Positions 4,550 through 64,000 of a stretch of DNA of 64,000 bases are shown piece by piece. Where the stretch lies: NCBI GenBank assembly GCA_016742275.1, contig JACVCD010000002.1:62001-126000 (forward strand). Direction: 5' to 3'. Under the pieces are notes generated by a model. The model was not told where the DNA came from. It made no database searches and saw only the letters and a list, made by a program, of their open reading frames with translations. The number at the start of each line of letters is the position of its first letter. Positions within the stretch are counted from its first letter, which is position 1. A program made the position numbers and the translations under genes. This DNA comes from Gemmatimonadaceae bacterium. Its GTDB lineage: Bacteria > Gemmatimonadota > Gemmatimonadetes > Gemmatimonadales > Gemmatimonadaceae.

Positions 4550-5835
4550 GCGCATCGCCGTCGGTTGTTGCACGACTGATGAACCGGCTTGGCACCATCG
4601 AGCCGGGTGAAGAACGAGCCACCACACTCGCTGCCACGTATTTCTTCTTCGCACTCGCAAGCTATTTCATTCTGCGGGCGGTGCGAGATGCGGCGGGTGT
4701 GGCTGCCGGAACGGGCCAGCTACCATGGCTGTTCACCGGCACACTCATCACCACGCTGGTGATGAATCCGATATACGCCAGTGTCGTGGCGCGGCTGCCG
4801 GTGCGTCGTTTCATCCCGATTGTGTATCGGGTGTTCATTGCGCTGTTGCTGGTGTTCGCCGGTGTCATCAAGTACGGTCCGCCCGCGTGGGAGCCGTACC
4901 TCGGTCCGGCATTCTGGATTCTCACCAGCATCTACAGTCTGTTCATCCCCTCGGTGTTCTGGGGGTTCATGGCCGACACGTTCAATCCGGAACAGTCGAA
5001 GCGACTGTTTGGATTCATCAGTGTTGGTGGTACGCTGGGCGCCATTGCCGGCGCGTTTCTCACATCGCAGTTGGCGCAGCGCGTGGGTACACCGGTGCTC
5101 ATGATCATGAGCGTGGTGCTGCTGGAATGTGCGGTGCAGAGCACACGCCGCTTTCCGCCAAGCTTCCGTGCTGACACACGTGCCCGTGACGAAGCCGAAC
5201 GTGCAGTTGGCGGGTCGTCGTTTGCCGGCATTACGCATGTATTGTCGTCGCCCTATTTGCTGGGCATCTGCCTGTACATGCTGATGTTCACCATCGGCAG
5301 CACGGTGCTCTACTTCCAGCAGGCCGAGATCGTGGGCGCGCGCTATGCCGATCGTGAAGCACGCACGGCGTTTCTGGCGACCATTGATACAGTGGTGCAG
5401 ACTCTCACAATCCTCGCGCAGTTGTTCGTGACGGGTCGCGTGATCAAGTGGGTTGGCGTGGGCTTCACGCTGGCCATCATGCCCATTCTGAGCCTGATCG
5501 GATTTGCCTCGCTCGGCATGTGGGCCACGCTGGCGGTGTTCGTGGTGTTTCAGGTGACGCGTCGCGCGGGCGAATACGCGTTTGGTCGTCCTGCACGCGA
5601 AGTGCTGTTCACCGTGGTCGCACCGGAAGACAAGTACAAGGCCAAGAATTTCATCGACACCTTCGTGTATCGTGGTGGCGATCAAATCGGCGCGTGGAGT
5701 TATGCTGGTCTCACGGCGGCGGGCCTTGCCGTCAGTACGATTTCACTGCTGGCAGCACCACTCAGTGCGATCTGGTTGGTTGTGGCTGTCTGGCTTGGGC
5801 GCCAGCAGGCGCAACGGCAGCTCAGCGATTTTTAG
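4546..5835 (+). CDS. MFS / Npt1-Npt2 (Tlc)-like membrane transporter
   Basis: 429 aa, GTG start overlapping the preceding stop by 4 bases (GTGA). A longer frame from 4519 exists, but coupling favours 4546. The protein is a polytopic membrane protein with about 10-12 hydrophobic segments, beginning with FFFALASYFILRAVRDAAG, a segment seen in bacterial MFS proteins related to the Npt1/Npt2 (ATP/ADP translocase-like) family. Basic loops such as VARLPVRRFIP lie between helices. As the last gene of the dipeptidase-epimerase operon it may move the pathway's substrate or product. Nucleotide transport should not be assumed. Confidence 0.8.
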   Translation: MSASPSVVARLMNRLGTIEPGEERATTLAATYFFFALASYFILRAVRDAAGVAAGTGQLPWLFTGTLITTLVMNPIYASVVARLPVRRFIPIVYRVFIALLLVFAGVIKYGPPAWEPYLGPAFWILTSIYSLFIPSVFWGFMADTFNPEQSKRLFGFISVGGTLGAIAGAFLTSQLAQRVGTPVLMIMSVVLLECAVQSTRRFPPSFRADTRARDEAERAVGGSSFAGITHVLSSPYLLGICLYMLMFTIGSTVLYFQQAEIVGARYADREARTAFLATIDTVVQTLTILAQLFVTGRVIKWVGVGFTLAIMPILSLIGFASLGMWATLAVFVVFQVTRRAGEYAFGRPAREVLFTVVAPEDKYKAKNFIDTFVYRGGDQIGAWSYAGLTAAGLAVSTISLLAAPLSAIWLVVAVWLGRQQAQRQLSDF

Positions 5836-6772: not shown

Positions 6773-8983
6773 GTGGGTGAGAGTGTTTCAATCGGCACTC
6801 CAATTGGACCATTGACAAGTAGATTGATCGCAAACGTAGCTTTGGCGGAGCTTGACAGGTACGTCGAATCAGATTCGCGAACGATTACTTACCGTAGGTA
6901 CGTCGACGACGTTGTGGTGGTCTCCAAGGTCGAGCCGAATACGAAAGTTGAAGTCAAGAGCATTCTTCCTTTGACCAAGATCGCCGATTCAGACGTCTTA
7001 GACTCTCAGGTGTTGAAGCGTTCGAAAGTTCGCCTCATGGTCAACGCAAGAAAGACGCGCCTTCACGTACTTGAAGGAAGGACAGGCGTTGGATTTCTAG
7101 ATACTGTGATTCGCTACCAGCTCGAGCTGGCAAGCCAGCGGCGGTCGTTTGTTCCTGAGAATAGACTGCTCACTGAAAGTTCCGCTACAATTGCGCGCTC
7201 AATCAGCAAGAACGAAACTGTTCCAAAGACACTTCGGGAAATCGACGAGCGTAAGCTTGAGAAGTATGCAATCAACACAGCAATTATCGGTGTAAGCAAC
7301 GCAGCGATACTCATAGATCGCGCCGAAGCAAACCAGATTGTTCGCAGAGCAGTGGAGCACCTGCTTACTCTAGCTCGCGGTAGCTACAACTGGCCGGAGT
7401 TCTTGGCACCACTGTGCTCACTTCTTGAAGTTGCCGTTTCGCTGCAGCTAAAGAGCCCAGCGCGCCAAATCGTTAACCACTTCCTTGGCACCGAAGAAGG
7501 CCGGAGTGGAGTCATAGAGGGAATGGTTGCGATTCAATGGGCGAATAGGGAGATCGCGAACGCCGAGGCGCAGAAGATGATTCGTAGCTGGGTAAAACAA
7601 CGTCTCAAAGACGCGATCTCAATTGGAGTGTCATCTTGGACATTAAAGGTTCGAAGCAGCAACTCCAAGAAAAGTCGCCAAGTCTTGAACTTCCCGTCCC
7701 TTGCCAGCCCGAACATGCTCCGCAGGCAGGGCAATCGATTCCTTCGGTCAGGAATTTCGCATCGTACTACACTTTTCAAGTTGCGTGGACCGATAGAAAT
7801 ACCGCGACGATCGACCTGGGGTTTGAGTGGGGTCACGTGGTCACACGCAATGGAGAAACGAATCGGCGTCCTTCGTGAACTTGCAGGCCTAGGAAGGCGA
7901 GCAAATGATCCGGTACTCGCTCGTGACTGGATATCGGCAATACTTCATCCAAATCCTCCATCATACTTTGCCGTCGCTATGCTTGTTTGGAGCGACACGA
8001 AGACTTCTGAAACGTTTGTCGAGCGCCTATGGAGAACTACCAAGTACGTTAACGCTTTGCGAGGAACCAAGTACCGCTCGCCTGATGCAAAACTTGACTT
8101 AGCCGGTACGGTGAGCCTGCCTCCGAGCGTTAGGAACTCGACCTCCGAAGCAATTCGTTACGTACTTGCGAATCTCGAAACCACGGATGCAAGCTGGAAA
8201 AGCTCCCTTCGCAATCCGAGTCGCTCGCTTGATCGACTGCTCTCACTAAGCAGGACAATCGACAGTTCACTCGAGTGTCAGACAACAAAATGGGGTGATC
8301 TGTCGCCAATGCTCATACTACTACCGGAGCTCTCATTGCCGCGAACTTGGGTCGCGCCACTTGGTGACTACATCACTTCTCGTCGGAAAGTTGGGTTAGT
8401 TGCTGGTATCGAATACCTCGTTGAAAAATCGAGTGGTCTCGTGACGAACCAAGCAGTGGCAATACTTCCTGGCCCGTACAAGAGCGCCAGCTTCTGGAGC
8501 TGGAGAAAGCGAGCACCGGCACAGAAGGAGAAAGAAGAGCTAGCAAAGGAAGGGTTCCGATTGGAAGTACAAGGAGTTGAACGAACTCTAGTCCTTGATA
8601 CGGAATTTGGCAGATTTTCCGTGCTCGTCTGCAGTGAAATTATCGATACCAAGAAGATAGCAGATGTAGTTGGTAGAGCCGAAGTGCTTCTTGTTCCAGC
8701 TTGGAATCAGGACACGACGAGTTTCGACCACATGACAAAGTCAGTTGGACTCGCAACTCACACCATTGTATGCGTCGCGAACAATAGGAGGTTCTCGGAT
8801 TGCAGGGCATGGGCGCCGCTCAGCAAGCGCTATGAGCAGGATCTGTGTCGTTTGATCGAAAGAACAAGGGACGGAGTAATTGTATTCGAGCCGCCAATCT
8901 CGTCTCTAAGAGATCTCCACGAAACTGGCTTAGATTCCGAGTCGATTTGGAAGCCACTGCCTCCTGGCTGGATGGAGAGCTGA
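6773..8983 (+). CDS. C-terminal RT palm and nitrilase fragment of the DRT1-like protein
   Basis: Same frame as the upstream fragment. A GTG at 6773 is the first candidate start after the TGA, but the 22 codons before it also read as RT sequence and no clear ribosome-binding site precedes it. The fragment holds RT motifs B and C (YVDD), an all-helical middle region of about 400 residues with no motif I recognise, and the nitrilase domain with its Glu and Cys residues. Independent initiation would give an RT palm without motif A. Confidence 0.65.
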   Translation: MGESVSIGTPIGPLTSRLIANVALAELDRYVESDSRTITYRRYVDDVVVVSKVEPNTKVEVKSILPLTKIADSDVLDSQVLKRSKVRLMVNARKTRLHVLEGRTGVGFLDTVIRYQLELASQRRSFVPENRLLTESSATIARSISKNETVPKTLREIDERKLEKYAINTAIIGVSNAAILIDRAEANQIVRRAVEHLLTLARGSYNWPEFLAPLCSLLEVAVSLQLKSPARQIVNHFLGTEEGRSGVIEGMVAIQWANREIANAEAQKMIRSWVKQRLKDAISIGVSSWTLKVRSSNSKKSRQVLNFPSLASPNMLRRQGNRFLRSGISHRTTLFKLRGPIEIPRRSTWGLSGVTWSHAMEKRIGVLRELAGLGRRANDPVLARDWISAILHPNPPSYFAVAMLVWSDTKTSETFVERLWRTTKYVNALRGTKYRSPDAKLDLAGTVSLPPSVRNSTSEAIRYVLANLETTDASWKSSLRNPSRSLDRLLSLSRTIDSSLECQTTKWGDLSPMLILLPELSLPRTWVAPLGDYITSRRKVGLVAGIEYLVEKSSGLVTNQAVAILPGPYKSASFWSWRKRAPAQKEKEELAKEGFRLEVQGVERTLVLDTEFGRFSVLVCSEIIDTKKIADVVGRAEVLLVPAWNQDTTSFDHMTKSVGLATHTIVCVANNRRFSDCRAWAPLSKRYEQDLCRLIERTRDGVIVFEPPISSLRDLHETGLDSESIWKPLPPGWMES

Positions 8984-58793: not shown

Positions 58794-58870
58794 GTTGGAC
58801 CATGTCGGTTTGATGCAACCGACGTAGAAATGATGACGGGACATGCGTGGCACGGTGGTATGGTGCCGGC

Positions 58871-59857
58871 ATGTCCCGTTCTTCGTTGTTGGTGTTGGCG
58901 CGTGAGCGTGCGGCGCTACGACGGTACAGTCCCCGTACGGTGGATGTGTATCTGCGGTGGGTGGTGAAGTACGTGCGTCACCATGGACTTCAGCATCCGG
59001 GTCGCATGGGCGCCGAGGAGGTTCGGGCCTTTCTCAGTCACTTGGCGGATGTTGGTCATGTGGCAGCGAGCACGCAGAACCAGGCCTTGGCGGCGTTGCA
59101 ATTTCTGTATCGTGATGTGTTGGATGCGCCGCTGCCGCCAATTGATGCATTGGCGCCGGCGCCGCGTCCGCAGGTGTTGCCCAACGTGTTGTCGCGCGAT
59201 GGCGTAGCGCGGGTGCTGACGCACATGGATGGTACGCCGCGGCTGATGGCGCAGTTGCTGTACGGGTCCGGATTGCGGTTGATGGAGTGTTGTGCATTGC
59301 GCCGGAAGGATGTGAATCTCGAGCGACGCGAGATCGTGTTGCGTCAGACCAAGGGTGGGCGACATCGCGTGACGATGTTGCCGGAATCGCTGATGGACCC
59401 GTTGTCCCAGCAGATGGAGCGTGCGCGGGTGTTCATTGTGCGTCTGATGTTGCGTGGCGGTGGGTATGTGGAACTGCCAAATGCCTTTCATCTCAAGGCG
59501 TCGAATGCCGGTCGGCATCGTGCGTGGATGTGGGTATTCCCGGCGGCACGGCAGCATTGGCACGCCGAGAGTCGGCAGTGGCGCGTGCACCATGTGCATC
59601 CGAGTGTGTTGCAGCGGGCGGTGGCGTCGGCCGCGAAGGATGCCGGACTTGGACAGCGCGTGGGGTGCCACACATTCCGGCACTCTTTCGCCACACATCT
59701 GCTGGAGTCGGGCTACGACATTCGCACCGTGCAGGAGCTATTGGGCCACAAGGATGTGAAGACCACGATGCTGTACACGCATGTGCTGAATCGCGGCGGG
59801 CGTGGTGTTCGGAGTCCGTTGGACGGCGTGCCGGGAGCGGGCCATGTCCTCCCGTGA
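58871..59857 (+). CDS. intI: Integron integrase (tyrosine recombinase IntI), in cassette orientation
   Basis: 328 aa from ATG 58871. Tyrosine recombinase residues: Arg in YGSGLRLME, His/Arg in CHTFRHSFATHLLESGYD, His and Tyr in LLGHKDVKTTMLYTHVLNRG. The integron-specific insert between catalytic boxes is present (YVELPNAFHLKASNAG to WMWVFPA), as is the IntI-type end RGGRGVRSPLD. The gene points toward the array, unlike class 1 integrons, so its 3' end is next to attI. Such inverted integrases form a known subset in other phyla. GC is high, like the chromosome, which suggests long residence. Confidence 0.93.
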   Translation: MSRSSLLVLARERAALRRYSPRTVDVYLRWVVKYVRHHGLQHPGRMGAEEVRAFLSHLADVGHVAASTQNQALAALQFLYRDVLDAPLPPIDALAPAPRPQVLPNVLSRDGVARVLTHMDGTPRLMAQLLYGSGLRLMECCALRRKDVNLERREIVLRQTKGGRHRVTMLPESLMDPLSQQMERARVFIVRLMLRGGGYVELPNAFHLKASNAGRHRAWMWVFPAARQHWHAESRQWRVHHVHPSVLQRAVASAAKDAGLGQRVGCHTFRHSFATHLLESGYDIRTVQELLGHKDVKTTMLYTHVLNRGGRGVRSPLDGVPGAGHVLP

Positions 59858-59988
59858 CTCTCTCTGAGCGTCGGCGTGATATAGCGCGATAACCGCAGGA
59901 TAACGCGGGCTGGCGGGTGGGCTTAGGCGCACCGTAAGTTCTGGCAATGCAATTGGATGGTGTGCTGCACTGCCGCGAATTTCAGGAT

Positions 59989-59997
59989 TGTTATACT
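59989..59997 (+). promoter_or_regulatory. Candidate cassette promoter (extended -10)
   Basis: TGTTATACT forms an extended -10 (TGn-TATACT) between intI and attI, pointing into the array. No convincing -35 is visible. In this gap (59858-60087) it is the only promoter-like signal I see. Confidence 0.4.
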
Positions 59998-59999
59998 GC

Positions 60000-60060
60000 G
60001 AAAATCAGCGGTATAAACAACTGGCTGCAGTGATCGCACGCGGTCTAATAAGCGTTAGGC
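60000..60060 (+). other. attI-like recombination site
   Basis: GTTAGGC (60054-60060) matches the GTTRRRY crossover exactly and stands between intI and the first cassette gene, without the paired arms of an attC. The 5' limit is arbitrary. Confidence 0.65.
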
Positions 60061-60087
60061 ACACGCTACGGAATCAATCATCAACTC

Positions 60088-60690
60088 ATGGGAGCAAAGA
60101 GAATGCCCTTCTCCGGCATGATGAACGACATAGTGGCGCTCGTAAAGCAGGATGGTACGGTCTTCCCCAACATCAAGAGCGTCGTTTCGGGCTCAAGCAT
60201 TGTGTTTGACGATGTGCAGATCCCTCTTGAGGAAGGAGATCACCTTGAGAGAAAGCTACCGAATGGCCTTAAGGAGACCTACGTCGTGCTCGATCGCGGT
60301 TACTACGACAAGTTTCACGGGATTCCTGCCCACTACCAGGCGAAGGTTCGTAAGCTGACTACGATTGAGGTGGAGCGGATCATGCGCCCGGGAATCTCGA
60401 TACATGGCGACAATTCTCGAGTCAACATCAACTCCACTGACAGATCCAGCAATCTCGTTCTGAATGGCAGCGATGTCTTCGAGAAGCTCTCGCAGGCAAT
60501 TAGGGAACGGGTAGCCGCCGAGTCAGAACGTGATTCACTGCTCGTTGCGATTGAGGGAATGCGGTCATCTAACCAACAGGACGAATTTCTAGCGCACTAC
60601 CAACGCTTCATTGCCTCGGCCGCAAACCACATGACGATCATTGGCCCGTTCTTGCCGGCTCTTGCGAAGTTTTTCGGGGGCGGTGCCTAA
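60088..60690 (+). CDS. Cassette 1: conserved protein of unknown function
   Basis: 200 aa from ATG 60088, or 195 aa from ATG 60103 (MPFSGMMNDIVALVKQDG). Two parts are visible: an N-terminal beta-rich domain of about 95 residues (FPNIKSVVSGSSIVFDDVQI, LERKLPNGLKETYVVLDRGY, GIPAHYQAKVRK), then an Asn/Ser segment RVNINSTDRSSN and a helical C-terminus ending AANHMTIIGPFLPALAKFF. I recall this layout in unannotated proteins of many bacteria but know no function. The stop TAA is embedded in the attC R'' box. Confidence 0.8.
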   Translation: MGAKRMPFSGMMNDIVALVKQDGTVFPNIKSVVSGSSIVFDDVQIPLEEGDHLERKLPNGLKETYVVLDRGYYDKFHGIPAHYQAKVRKLTTIEVERIMRPGISIHGDNSRVNINSTDRSSNLVLNGSDVFEKLSQAIRERVAAESERDSLLVAIEGMRSSNQQDEFLAHYQRFIASAANHMTIIGPFLPALAKFFGGGA

Positions 60691-60791
60691 CAGAACGCTG
60701 CTGCCGCCAGGGCATTCGATGAGCGCGGCTGACTCACTGCGTTCGCCTGCCGCATTGTTATGGGGCCCTGCGGCAGAGCTTTGCGTTATGC
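60685..60791 (+). repeat. attC site of cassette 1
   Basis: R'' GCCTAAC (60685-60691) and R' GTTATGC (60785-60791) enclose arms GCTGCTGCCGCCAGGGC and GCCCTGCGGCAGAGC that pair with unpaired extra bases, as in folded attC. 107 bp. Confidence 0.88.
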
Positions 60792-60875
60792 AAAAACTAG
60801 AAACCACCTCGGCCTGTCGGGCATCGCTTGGGCTACCCGAAGCATCCATATATTCGTTACGCCAATCGACCGTAA

Positions 60876-61856
60876 ATGACAGAGAACACGATCAACGTGG
60901 GAGCAGAGAGCACGACATCGCAGTATCGGGTGCTCTCACTCGATGGCGGAGGCGCAAAGGGGCTCTACACACTAGGGGTACTTCATGAGTTCGAGAAGTA
61001 CGTCGGTGGGTCGCTAGGGTCATACTTCGAACTGATTTACGGAACCAGCACGGGTGCCATTATCGCCGCACTCTTGGCGCTCGGAAAGTCCGTTGCTGAA
61101 ATCCTTGATATCTACCTAGAGTTGGTGCCGCGAGTGATGCGTGCAGGGCTTCGACCCCCGCCGCTGGCAAGGCGGTATCGATCAAATGCGCTGCGCAGAG
61201 AGGCAGAGCGCATCTTTGGCGATCGAAACTTCGATGCATTCCAGACTGCATTGGGATTGGTCGCCGTGGACTACGATGGCGCGAAGCCGATGATCTTCAA
61301 GACAAAGGCAGATCTCGCGATCGGCAGAAGGAGCAGCTTTGAAGCTGGATTCGGTTCGACCATCGTAGACGCACTAGTCGCCTCAACCGCAGCATTTCCG
61401 TTCTTTGCACGGCCGAGAATCGCCACGAGTAGTTGGGGCAATCCAGAAGTACTAGATGGTGGCTACGCGGCGAATAACCCGACCATGCTTGCAATTGCCG
61501 ACGCGCTAAGGGTGGTGACAGCACCCGAGAGGCTGGCGGTTCTGAGCATCGGAGTTGGTCACTACAAGGAGCCGAAACGAAGTATCGCCCATCAGCTACT
61601 CTTCAGTATGTGGTGGTTCTATATGATCCCTAAGACGCTTGAGACTAGCACGAACACGATGGAAGGCCTGCGTAAGGCACTATGCGCGCATGTCCCATGC
61701 GTGCGAATCGATGAAACCTACGCCGGCTCAGAGTACGCCACAGACCTTCTCGAGTCGGATCGGAATAAACTAGAGAAGCTCTTCGTTTTGGGACGCACTT
61801 CCTTCGGAGCTTTCGAGTCTCAGGTGAAACAGCTGTTCCCACCACTCGCCAACTGA
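60876..61856 (+). CDS. capV: Cassette 2: patatin-like phospholipase, probable CBASS effector (CapV-like)
   Basis: 326 aa, cytoplasmic (no signal). Patatin motifs: LSLDGGGAKGLYTLGVL (oxyanion loop), nucleophile in YGTSTGAII, and the Asp in LDGGYAANNP. Directly upstream of a CD-NTase gene, 7 bases apart, in the order also seen for capV-dncV in Vibrio. In CBASS the nucleotide second messenger switches on such a lipase, which degrades the inner membrane of phage-infected cells. A weak promoter-like pair (TTGGGC 60828, TATATT 60849) lies upstream. Confidence 0.85.
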   Translation: MTENTINVGAESTTSQYRVLSLDGGGAKGLYTLGVLHEFEKYVGGSLGSYFELIYGTSTGAIIAALLALGKSVAEILDIYLELVPRVMRAGLRPPPLARRYRSNALRREAERIFGDRNFDAFQTALGLVAVDYDGAKPMIFKTKADLAIGRRSSFEAGFGSTIVDALVASTAAFPFFARPRIATSSWGNPEVLDGGYAANNPTMLAIADALRVVTAPERLAVLSIGVGHYKEPKRSIAHQLLFSMWWFYMIPKTLETSTNTMEGLRKALCAHVPCVRIDETYAGSEYATDLLESDRNKLEKLFVLGRTSFGAFESQVKQLFPPLAN

Positions 61857-61863
61857 GTTCGTC

Positions 61864-62898
61864 ATGGCCCGCGAAACCCAATTGCAAAATCTGCAAGACC
61901 GCCGACGTGGCGTGGTAGAGAAGGCACTCGGCCTCCAAGAGGCTTACGCGAGACTATCCGAGGATTCGGCAGTCAAGTATGCCATAGGTGCAATGCAGCC
62001 CATTGAGAAGCGATATACGGAGATTACGCTCGAGGAAGGTTCGCGAGTGAGGCGTCAGCTTGAAGATGGGCTGGCACGGCGAAACATCCCCGTTGCGTTT
62101 CGATTTCAGGGATCGACTACTAACGATACCCATATTAAGGCGTACAGCGACATTGACTTGCTAACCCTCCATCTTGCGTATCACGACCTGGAGCCGCCTT
62201 TGCGGCCTTCGACGCCATATGCGGGGGATCCGGCGAGCGACCTCAAAGAGTTGCGTCAAGCAGCAATTGGAGTGCTTGCCAACGCCTTCCCAGAAGTGAT
62301 GGTCGATGCTTCGGGATCCAAGGCGTTAGCCCTGTCAGGTGGCTCATTGCGCCGTGACGTCGATGTCGTGATAGGAAACTGGTGGAACAATATTGAGTAT
62401 GAGCAAACAAGCCTTGAAGCATTTCGGGGCGTTCGCATTTACGATGCGCACAGCCAGCAGCGGATAGGCAACAAGCCATTTCTACACAATCTGCGAATCG
62501 CGGAGAAGGACGCGCGGTGCGGAGGGGGATTGCGAAAGGTTTGTCGACTGCTGAAGTCACTGAAGTACGACGCGCAGCCGGAAGTCCCGATGTCGAGTTA
62601 TGACTTAGTGAGCTTGGCTTATGCGATGTCAGAGCAACAGCTCACGACGGAGAACGGCGCGGATCTGCAGCTGGTGGCGAATACTGAAGAGTTTCTCCGT
62701 GTCCTCCGTGGGAGTGAGCAACTCAGAAGTCAGATGTATGTTCCGAACGGAATGCGCAAGGTGTTCTGTGCTGAGGGCGCAACCATCGACGGTCTAAAGG
62801 CACTGCATGCGGAAGTGGCGCAGCTGCTCGCAGACATTCATCAAGGTTTGGCGCGCTCGTTCAAGAAGCTCGAATCCTCTCGAATCTTGCTTGGATAG
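61864..62898 (+). CDS. Cassette 2: CD-NTase (cyclic oligonucleotide synthase) of a CBASS-like pair
   Basis: 344 aa. The nucleotidyltransferase core is FQGSTTNDTHIKAYSDIDLL (GS motif and the two catalytic Asp) with the third acidic strand RRDVDVVIGNWW. The remaining helical domain (GLRKVCRLLKSLKYDA, SSYDLVSLAYAMSEQQL) fits SMODS-type CD-NTases. It should make a cyclic di- or trinucleotide on phage infection; the product cannot be predicted. No Cap2/Cap3 or HORMA/TRIP13 gene follows, so this would be a minimal type I system. Confidence 0.85.
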   Translation: MARETQLQNLQDRRRGVVEKALGLQEAYARLSEDSAVKYAIGAMQPIEKRYTEITLEEGSRVRRQLEDGLARRNIPVAFRFQGSTTNDTHIKAYSDIDLLTLHLAYHDLEPPLRPSTPYAGDPASDLKELRQAAIGVLANAFPEVMVDASGSKALALSGGSLRRDVDVVIGNWWNNIEYEQTSLEAFRGVRIYDAHSQQRIGNKPFLHNLRIAEKDARCGGGLRKVCRLLKSLKYDAQPEVPMSSYDLVSLAYAMSEQQLTTENGADLQLVANTEEFLRVLRGSEQLRSQMYVPNGMRKVFCAEGATIDGLKALHAEVAQLLADIHQGLARSFKKLESSRILLG

Positions 62899-62925
62899 CG
62901 GCTCCTGCCCCTCAGCGCACCCGCC

Positions 62926-63032
62926 GCATAACGAGGCGCTGCTGCCGACAAGGCATTCAAGGTACACGGCTGGCTCGCTGCTCTCGCCTGCCGCATTGTT
63001 ATCAGGCCATGCGGCAGAGCTCAGCGTTATGC
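62926..63032 (+). repeat. attC site of cassette 2
   Basis: R'' GCATAAC (62926-62932), R' GTTATGC (63026-63032), arms GCTGCTGCCG and CGGCAGAGC. 107 bp and similar throughout to attC of cassette 1. Confidence 0.9.
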
Positions 63033-63053
63033 TTGGGAACACGCCGTCGCACC

Positions 63054-63082
63054 TTGACGGTGTGTATCCGAATAGATACACT
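63054..63082 (+). promoter_or_regulatory. Promoter and operator of the HigBA cassette
   Basis: -35 TTGACG (63054-63059), 17 bp, -10 TACACT (63077-63082). The 7-bp palindrome GTGTATC-6-GATACAC (63062-63081) covers spacer and -10, a likely antitoxin operator. Transcription would start at or next to the toxin ATG at 63088, giving a leaderless mRNA. Confidence 0.7.
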
Positions 63083-63087
63083 ACTGC

Positions 63088-63390
63088 ATGCACGTGTTTC
63101 TCCGCACCGACGAGTTCGACGCATGGCTGCGGGCACTGCGCGATCCGATCGGAAAGGCTCGGATCTTGGCGCGACTGCGCGCGGCCGAGTTAGGACACTT
63201 CGGCGATCACGCGCCGGTCGGAGACGGCGTGCTGGAGCTCCGCGTTCACGCGGGTCCGGGGTATCGGGTGTACTACTGGCGACAGGGCGCGGTGACGTAC
63301 TGGCTGCTCTGTGGCGGCGACAAGTCGACGCAGCGCCGTGATATCCGCCGCGCGCACGCCCTGCGTGCGGCACTGGAGGAGGAGCGATGA
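63088..63390 (+). CDS. higB: Cassette 3: RelE/HigB-type toxin
   Basis: 100 aa. Family marks: TDEFDAWLRALRDPIGKARI, LGHFGDHAPVGDGVLELRVH, GYRVYYWRQGAVTYWLLCGG and DKSTQRRDIRRAH. Toxins of this group cut mRNA on the ribosome. The toxin gene precedes the antitoxin, as in HigBA, and overlaps it by 4 bases (ATGA). Confidence 0.9.
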   Translation: MHVFLRTDEFDAWLRALRDPIGKARILARLRAAELGHFGDHAPVGDGVLELRVHAGPGYRVYYWRQGAVTYWLLCGGDKSTQRRDIRRAHALRAALEEER

Positions 63391-63680
63391 AGAAGGCAGC
63401 CCCGTTCGATGCGGCCGATTATCTCGACAGTGACGAGGTGATCGCGGAGTACCTCAACGTCGCGTTAGCCAGCGAGCATCCCGACTTGTTTCTCCAAGCC
63501 ATCGCGGATGTCGCGAAAGCGCGCGGGATGGCGCAACTAGCCAAGGATACCGGCCTGGGGCGCGAGAGTCTCTACAAGGCGCTGGCCCCCGGTGCGAAGC
63601 CGCGGTACGACACGGTGTTGAAACTCATCCGCGCACTGGGAGTGGAGTTGCATACGATGCCGATCGCGCGCGAAGCATAA
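63387..63680 (+). CDS. higA: Cassette 3: HigA-type antitoxin with helix-turn-helix
   Basis: 97 aa. The HTH is MAQLAKDTGLGRESLYKALA followed by YDTVLKLIRALGVELH, typical of the addiction-module antidote family paired with this toxin. It should bind HigB and the operator at 63062-63081. The stop TAA lies within the attC R'' box GCATAAC. Confidence 0.9.
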   Translation: MKKAAPFDAADYLDSDEVIAEYLNVALASEHPDLFLQAIADVAKARGMAQLAKDTGLGRESLYKALAPGAKPRYDTVLKLIRALGVELHTMPIAREA

Positions 63681-63767
63681 CGAGGCTTGCTGCAGGCGGG
63701 CGCCGTTTCGGACGCGCGCTGCGCGCGCATTTTGTTGGAGCGCCCGCTGTAGAAGCGAGCGTTATGG
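63676..63767 (+). repeat. attC site of cassette 3
   Basis: R'' GCATAAC (63676-63682) and R' GTTATGG (63761-63767). Arms GCTGCAGGCGGGCGCC and GGAGCGCCCGCTGTAG pair imperfectly. 92 bp, with an internal GC-rich palindrome; unlike the first two attC sites. Confidence 0.8.
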
Positions 63768-63819
63768 CCACGGGGCCTAGAGTTGCCGCGGTCTGAAATT
63801 GCTGCCAAATTCCCTCCAT

Positions 63820-64000
63820 ATGGTCGAGCGCTCGCAGGCATTGGAGTCCCTCACGGTCGAGGAGCGTATCGCGCTCATGGGCCGATTGTGGGACAGTTTG
63901 GATCCGGCGGACAGTGCTCCCGTCGCGGGAGCGTTGGCGGCGGAGCTGCATGATCGAGAGGTTGAGGCCGATGCCTCGCCGGATGCGGGTATCCTGTGGT
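63820..64000 (+). CDS. Cassette 4: addiction-module antitoxin (unstable antitoxin family), 3' end outside window
   Basis: 60 codons from ATG 63820 to the window edge. The start (RSQALESLTVEERIALMGRL, then WDSLDP) matches the short helical antitoxins that pair with RelE/ParE toxins (Unstab_antitox type). A toxin gene is expected just beyond the edge. Confidence 0.75.
   Translation, partial: MVERSQALESLTVEERIALMGRLWDSLDPADSAPVAGALAAELHDREVEADASPDAGILW

Follow-up and report, generated by a model that had tools for sequence, protein, structure and literature searches.

Can a complete anti-phage alarm system travel as a single integron gene cassette, and what does such a cassette contain? The question is raised by the 3' end of a 64,000-nucleotide stretch (called the window here, always at its full length) from a Gemmatimonadaceae bacterium (GenBank assembly GCA_016742275.1, contig JACVCD010000002.1, positions 62,001 to 126,000 of the forward strand; host genome of 4.57 Mb in 33 contigs). 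A unit of 2,241 bp at positions 60786–63026 of the window, on the plus strand, encodes a patatin-like phospholipase followed by a cGAS/DncV-like nucleotidyltransferase (CD-NTase). Our analysis makes it highly probable that this unit, the second cassette of a chromosomal integron, constitutes a whole and intact type I cyclic-oligonucleotide-based anti-phage signalling system (CBASS), with a mode of action and a mobility that we infer.

The limits of the unit are sharp. Core sites of the form G^TTATGC at 60785/60786 and 63026/63027 mark the exact ends of the cassette; the first-pass annotation, which had described a unit of about 2.2 kb between two homologous attC sites, was correct to the base. 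The left boundary is the attC of cassette 1 (60685–60791, plus strand; 107 nt, R'' GCCTAAC, R' GTTATGC, 22 arm pairs), and the right boundary is the attC of the CBASS cassette itself (62926–63032, plus strand; 107 nt, R'' GCATAAC, R' GTTATGC, 8 paired end bases, 21 arm pairs). Both form a long hairpin on the bottom strand and align with each other from end to end, while the next two sites of the array align more distantly. With an attC at its end and an R' core at its start, the unit is an integron gene cassette. Wholly within it lie just two plus-strand open reading frames (ORFs) of at least 60 aa, those of the patatin and the nucleotidyltransferase, separated by 7 bp; the earlier statement that no other gene is present is thereby borne out. 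Five minus-strand ORFs (60–105 aa) overlap the two genes.

The folding energies of the second and third attC sites indicate moderate stability (z -2.40 and z -2.20). When related loci were scanned for the TAAC/GTTR form of attC, with control windows of 350 bp, 2 out of 313 controls were positive; the CBASS cassette has one such site at each end. Across 85 loci (80 genomic, 5 viral) the same scan found a site upstream in four, downstream in five and on both sides in two; it misses the locus L027, and its matches in L023 and L069 look like chance. A plain census of core motifs in 82 loci gave 6 matches upstream, 7 downstream and 1 pair (3.7, 5.1 and 0.12 in shuffles), so that single core motifs prove nothing. 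An Rfam scan of the window gave no match at gathering thresholds, the attC coverage of that library being uncertain.

The first gene of the cassette (60876–61856, plus strand, 326 aa) matches the patatin family (Pfam: PF01734) with an E-value of 1.1e-28 and the effector model PDLC00755 with 344 bits, and it keeps the motifs DGGGAKG, GTSTG and DGG. It had been labelled CapV-like, an assignment that we revise: the protein matches the CapE structure 9iom at 3.2e-71 (243 bits), whereas CapV (8zr9) is a far weaker sequence match (1.7e-14), and the model of CapV-type CBASS lipases, NF041079, gives 132.9 bits where its cut-off is 200. Its structure model (predicted local distance difference test, pLDDT, 79.4) resembles CapE in complex with cyclic UMP-AMP (cUMP-AMP, cUA; 9ioq) with a template modelling (TM) score of 0.83. 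Sequence, predicted fold and catalytic dyad motifs all point to a CapE-like patatin. No relative of the patatin was found in viral contigs in a search that is sensitive to close relatives only; five relatives of the cyclase occur in viral contigs. Plasmid records contain no match of at least 60% identity to either protein.

The second gene (61864–62898, plus strand, 344 aa) has no Pfam match at E 0.001, and it matches the PADLOC model PDLC00807 with 340 bits and the structure 6wt9 at 6.2e-26. Residues G83, S84, D96, D98 and D167 are invariant in all 25 aligned relatives. The structure model (pLDDT 92.8) retrieves CdnE chains at PDB ranks 1 to 14, in the order of the STING-associated CdnE enzymes 6wt9 and 6wt8, then ClCdnE, EfCdnE, LpCdnE, RmCdnE and EmCdnE. 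Profile and fold comparison thus uphold the initial view that this protein is a CD-NTase, without any grouping with non-CBASS families, and place it in clade E. The two genes together show the features of a type I CBASS: a GS plus DxD...D active site and an adjacent effector (PDLC00755) 7 bp upstream, whereas ancillary genes (Cap2/Cap3, HORMA/TRIP13, QueC) are absent from the cassette. Given the scores of both proteins, their intact motifs and a full attC at either end, the claim of a complete two-gene CBASS-like system in one cassette stands.

The cassette belongs to a chromosomal integron, with an integrase gene, an attI-like site and a cassette array that are kept at one place in related genomes. 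The gene intI (58847–59857, plus strand, 336 aa) is intact and reads towards the cassettes; it matches TIGR02249 with 383.8 bits (cut-off 265) and is the only one of five matches in the genome that exceeds the cut-off. IntI carries GSGLRLME, HTFRHSFATH, GHKDV, TTMLYTH and the stretch VFPAARQHWHAESRQW, which we take to be its functional motifs. An attI-like core, GTTAGGC (60054–60060, plus strand), forms the left end of the array as a putative attI; the stretch GCGTTAGGC begins at 60052, slightly less than 200 bp 3' of intI. The array is short, its four cassettes all lie on the intI strand, and the CBASS cassette is second in line behind a cassette of 731 bp.

Among 60 relatives, 31 possess the integrase (E 1e-60 or better), including 18 of the 29 within the genus. 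Of 14 stretches from relatives, five have intI immediately after the same DEAD-box gene, several stretches stopping too near intI to tell; TAAC-type attC sites are present in seven of the 14, and the remaining seven end early at contig ends. The cyclase was found in none of 99 relatives searched and the patatin in none of 60. Together with the widespread integrase and the lower GC content of the cassette (0.556 versus 0.611 for the window), these absences fit a resident chromosomal integron that acquired the CBASS from outside.

Two side observations concern the integrase. Its orientation is the same as that of the cassettes (58847–60060); in the best known integrons, intI is oriented opposite to them. 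Furthermore, two relatives contain a second, distant integrase-like gene (L141, 16811–17599; L145, 14957–15745; 33% identity to IntI of the window), about 0.4 kb and 2.5 kb beyond intI, respectively.

How usual is the combination of these two proteins? We compared the neighbours of cyclases with reference effectors at 80 genome loci, those with the closest cyclases (the best 80 of 101 relatives); each species is represented by a single genome, and all loci belong to one cyclase group. The cyclase lies beside the membrane effector Cap15 in 71 of them and beside a CapE-like patatin in six (L024, L036, L038, L041, L077 and L098); in the remaining three, no adjacent effector was recognised. Some assignments carry qualifications: the patatins of L038 and L077 are each accompanied by a further, small cyclase, which leaves the pairing ambiguous; beyond the patatin of L098 lies a weak Cap15-like ORF (24%, E 2e-5); and L076, counted as Cap15, has a distant patatin (29%) nearby as well. 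The gene order of the window, patatin then cyclase, recurs among the 80 loci in L024 only, where the cyclase frame is broken in the assembly. On three plasmids, the partner of CapE-like patatins is a smaller cyclase of 296–297 aa, described by the model PDLC00788. A search for such a small cyclase in the genome of the window returned solely the window's own cyclase, with 29% identity; a search for Cap15 in the same genome found none, although it matched no control either, so that absence is not established. To judge from these sequence comparisons, a patatin joined to a PDLC00807-type cyclase is an uncommon effector-cyclase pairing. The row of genes at 4830–7849 of L077 comprises a Cap15-type cyclase, a CapE-like patatin and a small cyclase of the CapE type, i.e. 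one effector with two different cyclases.

The phylogeny of the cyclases comprises 85 rows, seven of them labelled patatin (L038 and L077 counted as such); near-identical or cut loci (L053, L058, L081, L084, L085, L103 and L104) were excluded. Being a quick tree in which the long branches of L038, L041 and L044 lie beside the row of the window, it leaves the placement of the latter unsure. The patatin label requires five changes on the tree, at least four of which are forced by well-supported branches; gains and losses are possible alike. Clustering of the label also exceeds that of most shuffles, of which 4 in 500 were as low. Around this cyclase group, effectors thus seem to have been exchanged repeatedly.

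For the movement of whole CBASS pairs as cassettes, the strongest support is found in Cap15-bearing relatives and not in the window's own cassette. In L052 (Aliivibrio) and L079 (Vreelandella), attC sites lie on both sides of a Cap15-CdnE pair, and the cassette of L052 sits in an array with ten detected attC sites. L070 (Marinobacter) and L074 (Pseudohongiella) share the same Cap15-CdnE pair, 97.3% identical over 1,820 bp; the identity starts at the core GCGTTATGA on the left and ends inside the attC on the right, and the flanks, searched against each other, showed no similarity. Between L025 (Cycloclasticus) and L027 (Competibacteraceae), identity is 72% over 1,679 bp, a stretch that reaches from GTTAGCC to GGCTAACAATC; in L027, an integron integrase lies 2.5 kb upstream (TIGR02249 378.9 bits, cut-off 265). 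The attC sites of L027 were recognised by eye, and their R arms are unpaired in the minimum-energy fold. Altogether, six of the 80 loci (L025, L027, L052, L070, L074 and L079) are counted as cassette-borne; L027 is assigned partly by eye, while L025, L070 and L074 have one scanned attC each, the other end being taken from pairwise comparison. Movement as a whole unit is thus supported by sequence boundaries in related cassettes, and the occurrence of related alarm systems in cassettes of other bacteria suggests that whole immune systems can spread in this way.

Less clear cases surround these loci. A similar left boundary is common to L028 and L030, without a clear pair of sites. L051, L055 and L056, whose records bear the names Oceanobacter, Comamonas and Serratia, hold almost the same Cap15-CdnE pair, with 96% identity between L051 and L055 and 87% to L056. 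The similarity to L056 stops sharply around the pair, and no TAAC-type attC was seen there; perhaps another kind of mobile carrier is involved. In L070 (6093–6150), the right attC of the Cap15-CdnE cassette is severed mid-site by other DNA, an event that would strand the cassette.

For the cassette of the window, we propose the following course of events. Upon phage infection the clade E CD-NTase, idle before, would make a cyclic dinucleotide, most likely one containing uracil such as cUMP-AMP. This molecule would bind the CapE-like patatin and assemble it, a step proposed because the structure 9ion is titled as a cUA-bound CapE filament. The serine hydrolase would then degrade membrane phospholipid, and the cell would die or stall before phage release. 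As for mobility, IntI would recombine the flanking attC sites in the form of their folded bottom strands, so that both genes may be excised and reinserted together.

What is more delicate is the prediction of the signal. In clade E, as set out in parts of PMC10442399, an Asn of the lid selects uracil in the acceptor pocket (the lid residues of ClCdnE being Asn169 and His174), and a C-terminal (R/Q)xW motif limits the donor to pyrimidine in enzymes with two-pyrimidine products. The cyclase of the window has Asn203 and His208 with the same 5-residue spacing as in ClCdnE, and they align with the Asn and His of EfCdnE; Asn203 is kept in all 25 relatives and His208 in 24 of them. The lid-1 position of Asn203 is taken from spacing and alignment. 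An earlier placement of the lid at Arg211/Asp216, which would have implied a purine product, was rejected, as it misfits the His given for EfCdnE in that paper. The window's cyclase contains no [RQ]xW, its sole tryptophans being residues 173 and 174; this absence does not speak against cUMP-AMP. A uracil acceptor without a bar to a purine donor would yield cUMP-AMP, the ligand bound by CapE, and cUA-bound structures are among the CapE entries that lie closest to the patatin. The product is therefore most likely a uracil-containing cyclic dinucleotide such as cUMP-AMP. The competing possibility, a working pair whose signal is a purine dinucleotide (cyclic di-GMP, c-di-GMP, or a cGAMP) and whose patatin has changed its ligand, gains weight from the best sequence and fold matches of the cyclase, which are the c-di-GMP synthases 6wt9 and 6wt8. 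Clade E signals vary, moreover: a Cap15-linked Staphylococcus cyclase senses phage RNA and makes 3',2'-cGAMP, according to passages of PMC10686824. Nevertheless, 6wt8 has Asp in the lid-1 column where the window's cyclase has Asn203, and 15 GGDEF matches in the genome would make c-di-GMP awkward as a death signal, given the clash with housekeeping. The relocation of the lid to Asn203/His208 shifted our prediction towards uracil and turned the purine alternative from a serious contender, not far short of even, into a rather unlikely one.

Several further observations weigh against an intact and mobile CBASS cassette. The patatin stays below the equivalog cut-offs not only of NF041079, as given above, but also of NF053870 (347.5 of 400 bits). 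The first attC folds with an unremarkable energy (z -1.13; 25 of 200 shuffles as good), so that the argument for attC is built on core sequence, symmetry and position. A stricter first scan recovered just the first of the three sites; a looser one was too permissive, with 44 matches in 144 kb on both strands; and the TAAC form also matches 8047–8163, outside the array. L024, the nearest locus of the same gene order, has no attC in the scan. Finally, the interval from 59800 to the patatin yielded no promoter-like site; from 59800 to 63900 there is one, at 63054, versus 2.2 expected.

These observations bear in part on the idea that the CBASS is a resident that is no longer mobile, owing to decayed attC sites or a silent integrase. 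The missing promoter-like site and the shortness of the array agree with it, as do the degenerate R' of the last attC and the severed site in L070. We nevertheless regard it as improbable: the integrase frame and motifs are intact, both attC sites of the cassette have canonical cores and arms, neither gene was found in the relatives searched, and cassette 3 has a relative of 83–91% identity in another integron of the genus. Even less credit is due to the suggestion that the unit is not a defence system at all, its two genes being chance neighbours or a toxin-antitoxin-like stabiliser of the array. A toxin-antitoxin pair in cassette 3 and a ParE-type toxin gene in cassette 4 lend it some colour; the 7-bp spacing, the match of each protein to its own CBASS family, the recurrence of the gene order in L024 and the catalytic residues kept in both proteins make it very improbable. 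We accordingly retain the reading of a complete type I CBASS cassette.

On a broader scale, we put forward, tentatively and as somewhat doubtful, that this CdnE group includes lineages which pass between distant bacteria in the form of integron cassettes, and that their effector, Cap15 or a CapE-like patatin, is exchangeable because both would read the same predicted uracil dinucleotide (e.g. cUMP-AMP). Such a shared signal is predicted because the cyclase keeps the lid Asn and is without the two-pyrimidine motif. If a cassette-borne CdnE with exchangeable effector proves true, integrons would be a route for the spread and recombination of whole cGAS-like immune operons. A sensor cyclase and a killer moving as one cassette would allow abortive-infection immunity to be gained, lost or re-ordered in one recombination step, and a patatin in the position that Cap15 occupies beside most relatives of the cyclase makes the matching of signal and effector directly testable.

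In comparison with known systems, the cassette combines an established type of system with an established carrier, while its effector and cyclase form an uncommon pair. It resembles the CapE type I CBASS (9iom, 9ion, 9iop, 9ioq) in its effector, by the sequence and fold scores given above and the same catalytic motifs, and differs from it in the partner, which is of 344 aa and PDLC00807 type instead of the 296–297 aa and PDLC00788 type seen with the CapE-like patatins of plasmids. With Cap15 plus clade E systems it shares the cyclase group, and has a patatin in place of Cap15. The STING-associated CdnE c-di-GMP synthases are the best sequence and fold match of its cyclase, yet identity is 26% (6wt9) and 20% (6wt8), the cassette contains no STING gene, and the lid-1 residue differs from that of 6wt8. 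DS-2, a DefensePredictor system described in part of PMC13092281, likewise combines a phospholipase with a cyclase, and the score of the window's patatin against NF053870 recalls it; according to that description, it needs a third gene, a diadenylate cyclase, which is not in the cassette. Membership in DS-2 was rejected on this ground and on the scores of patatin and cyclase (347.5 of 400 and 41.9 of 350 bits).

Integron defence cassettes as such are already known generally. Integrons as stores of defence genes are the subject of Darracq 2025, Kieffer 2025 and Getz 2025, as described in sections of the review PMC12409362, which also states that defence systems of more than two genes are absent from integrons. 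A Xanthomonas survey (PMC12444791) reports 12 cassette-borne defence systems and does not use the word CBASS in its main text. With the defence cassettes treated in the cited portions of these two sources, the cassette of the window shares a defence function between attC sites and no more than two genes; it differs from them as a two-gene cyclic-nucleotide signalling system. No CBASS operon is described as a cassette in the titles and abstract openings of the literature searched; the contents of the studies by Darracq, Kieffer and Getz lie outside this coverage, and for this reason we make no priority claim.

The other cassettes of the array lie on either side of the CBASS. Cassette 1 (60055–60785, plus strand, 731 bp from core to core) has a single ORF (60088–60690) for a protein of 200 aa without a Pfam match at E 0.1. 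Relatives of this protein occur in 223 plasmid records, 206 of them predicted to be conjugative, with 32–40% identity among the 20 matches listed; on the Agrobacterium plasmid NZ_CP116698, about 11 kb separate such a relative from a CapE-like patatin. The two cassettes 3' of the CBASS both carry toxin genes. Cassette 3 (63027–63761, plus strand) holds the toxin-antitoxin pair, a Gp49-like protein (63088–63390; Pfam: PF05973) and an HI1420-type antidote (63387–63680; Pfam: PF21716), and ends with an attC at 63675–63767 (plus strand; R'' GCATAAC, R' GTTATGG), the third site of the folding analysis; its relative lies beside an attC in L140, from another species of the same genus, the two proteins being 83% and 91% identical. 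Cassette 4 starts at 63762 (plus strand), runs to 64000 and continues past the end of the window, with its ParE-type toxin gene at L002:38–337 and its attC at about L002:328–440, the site with the degenerate R'.

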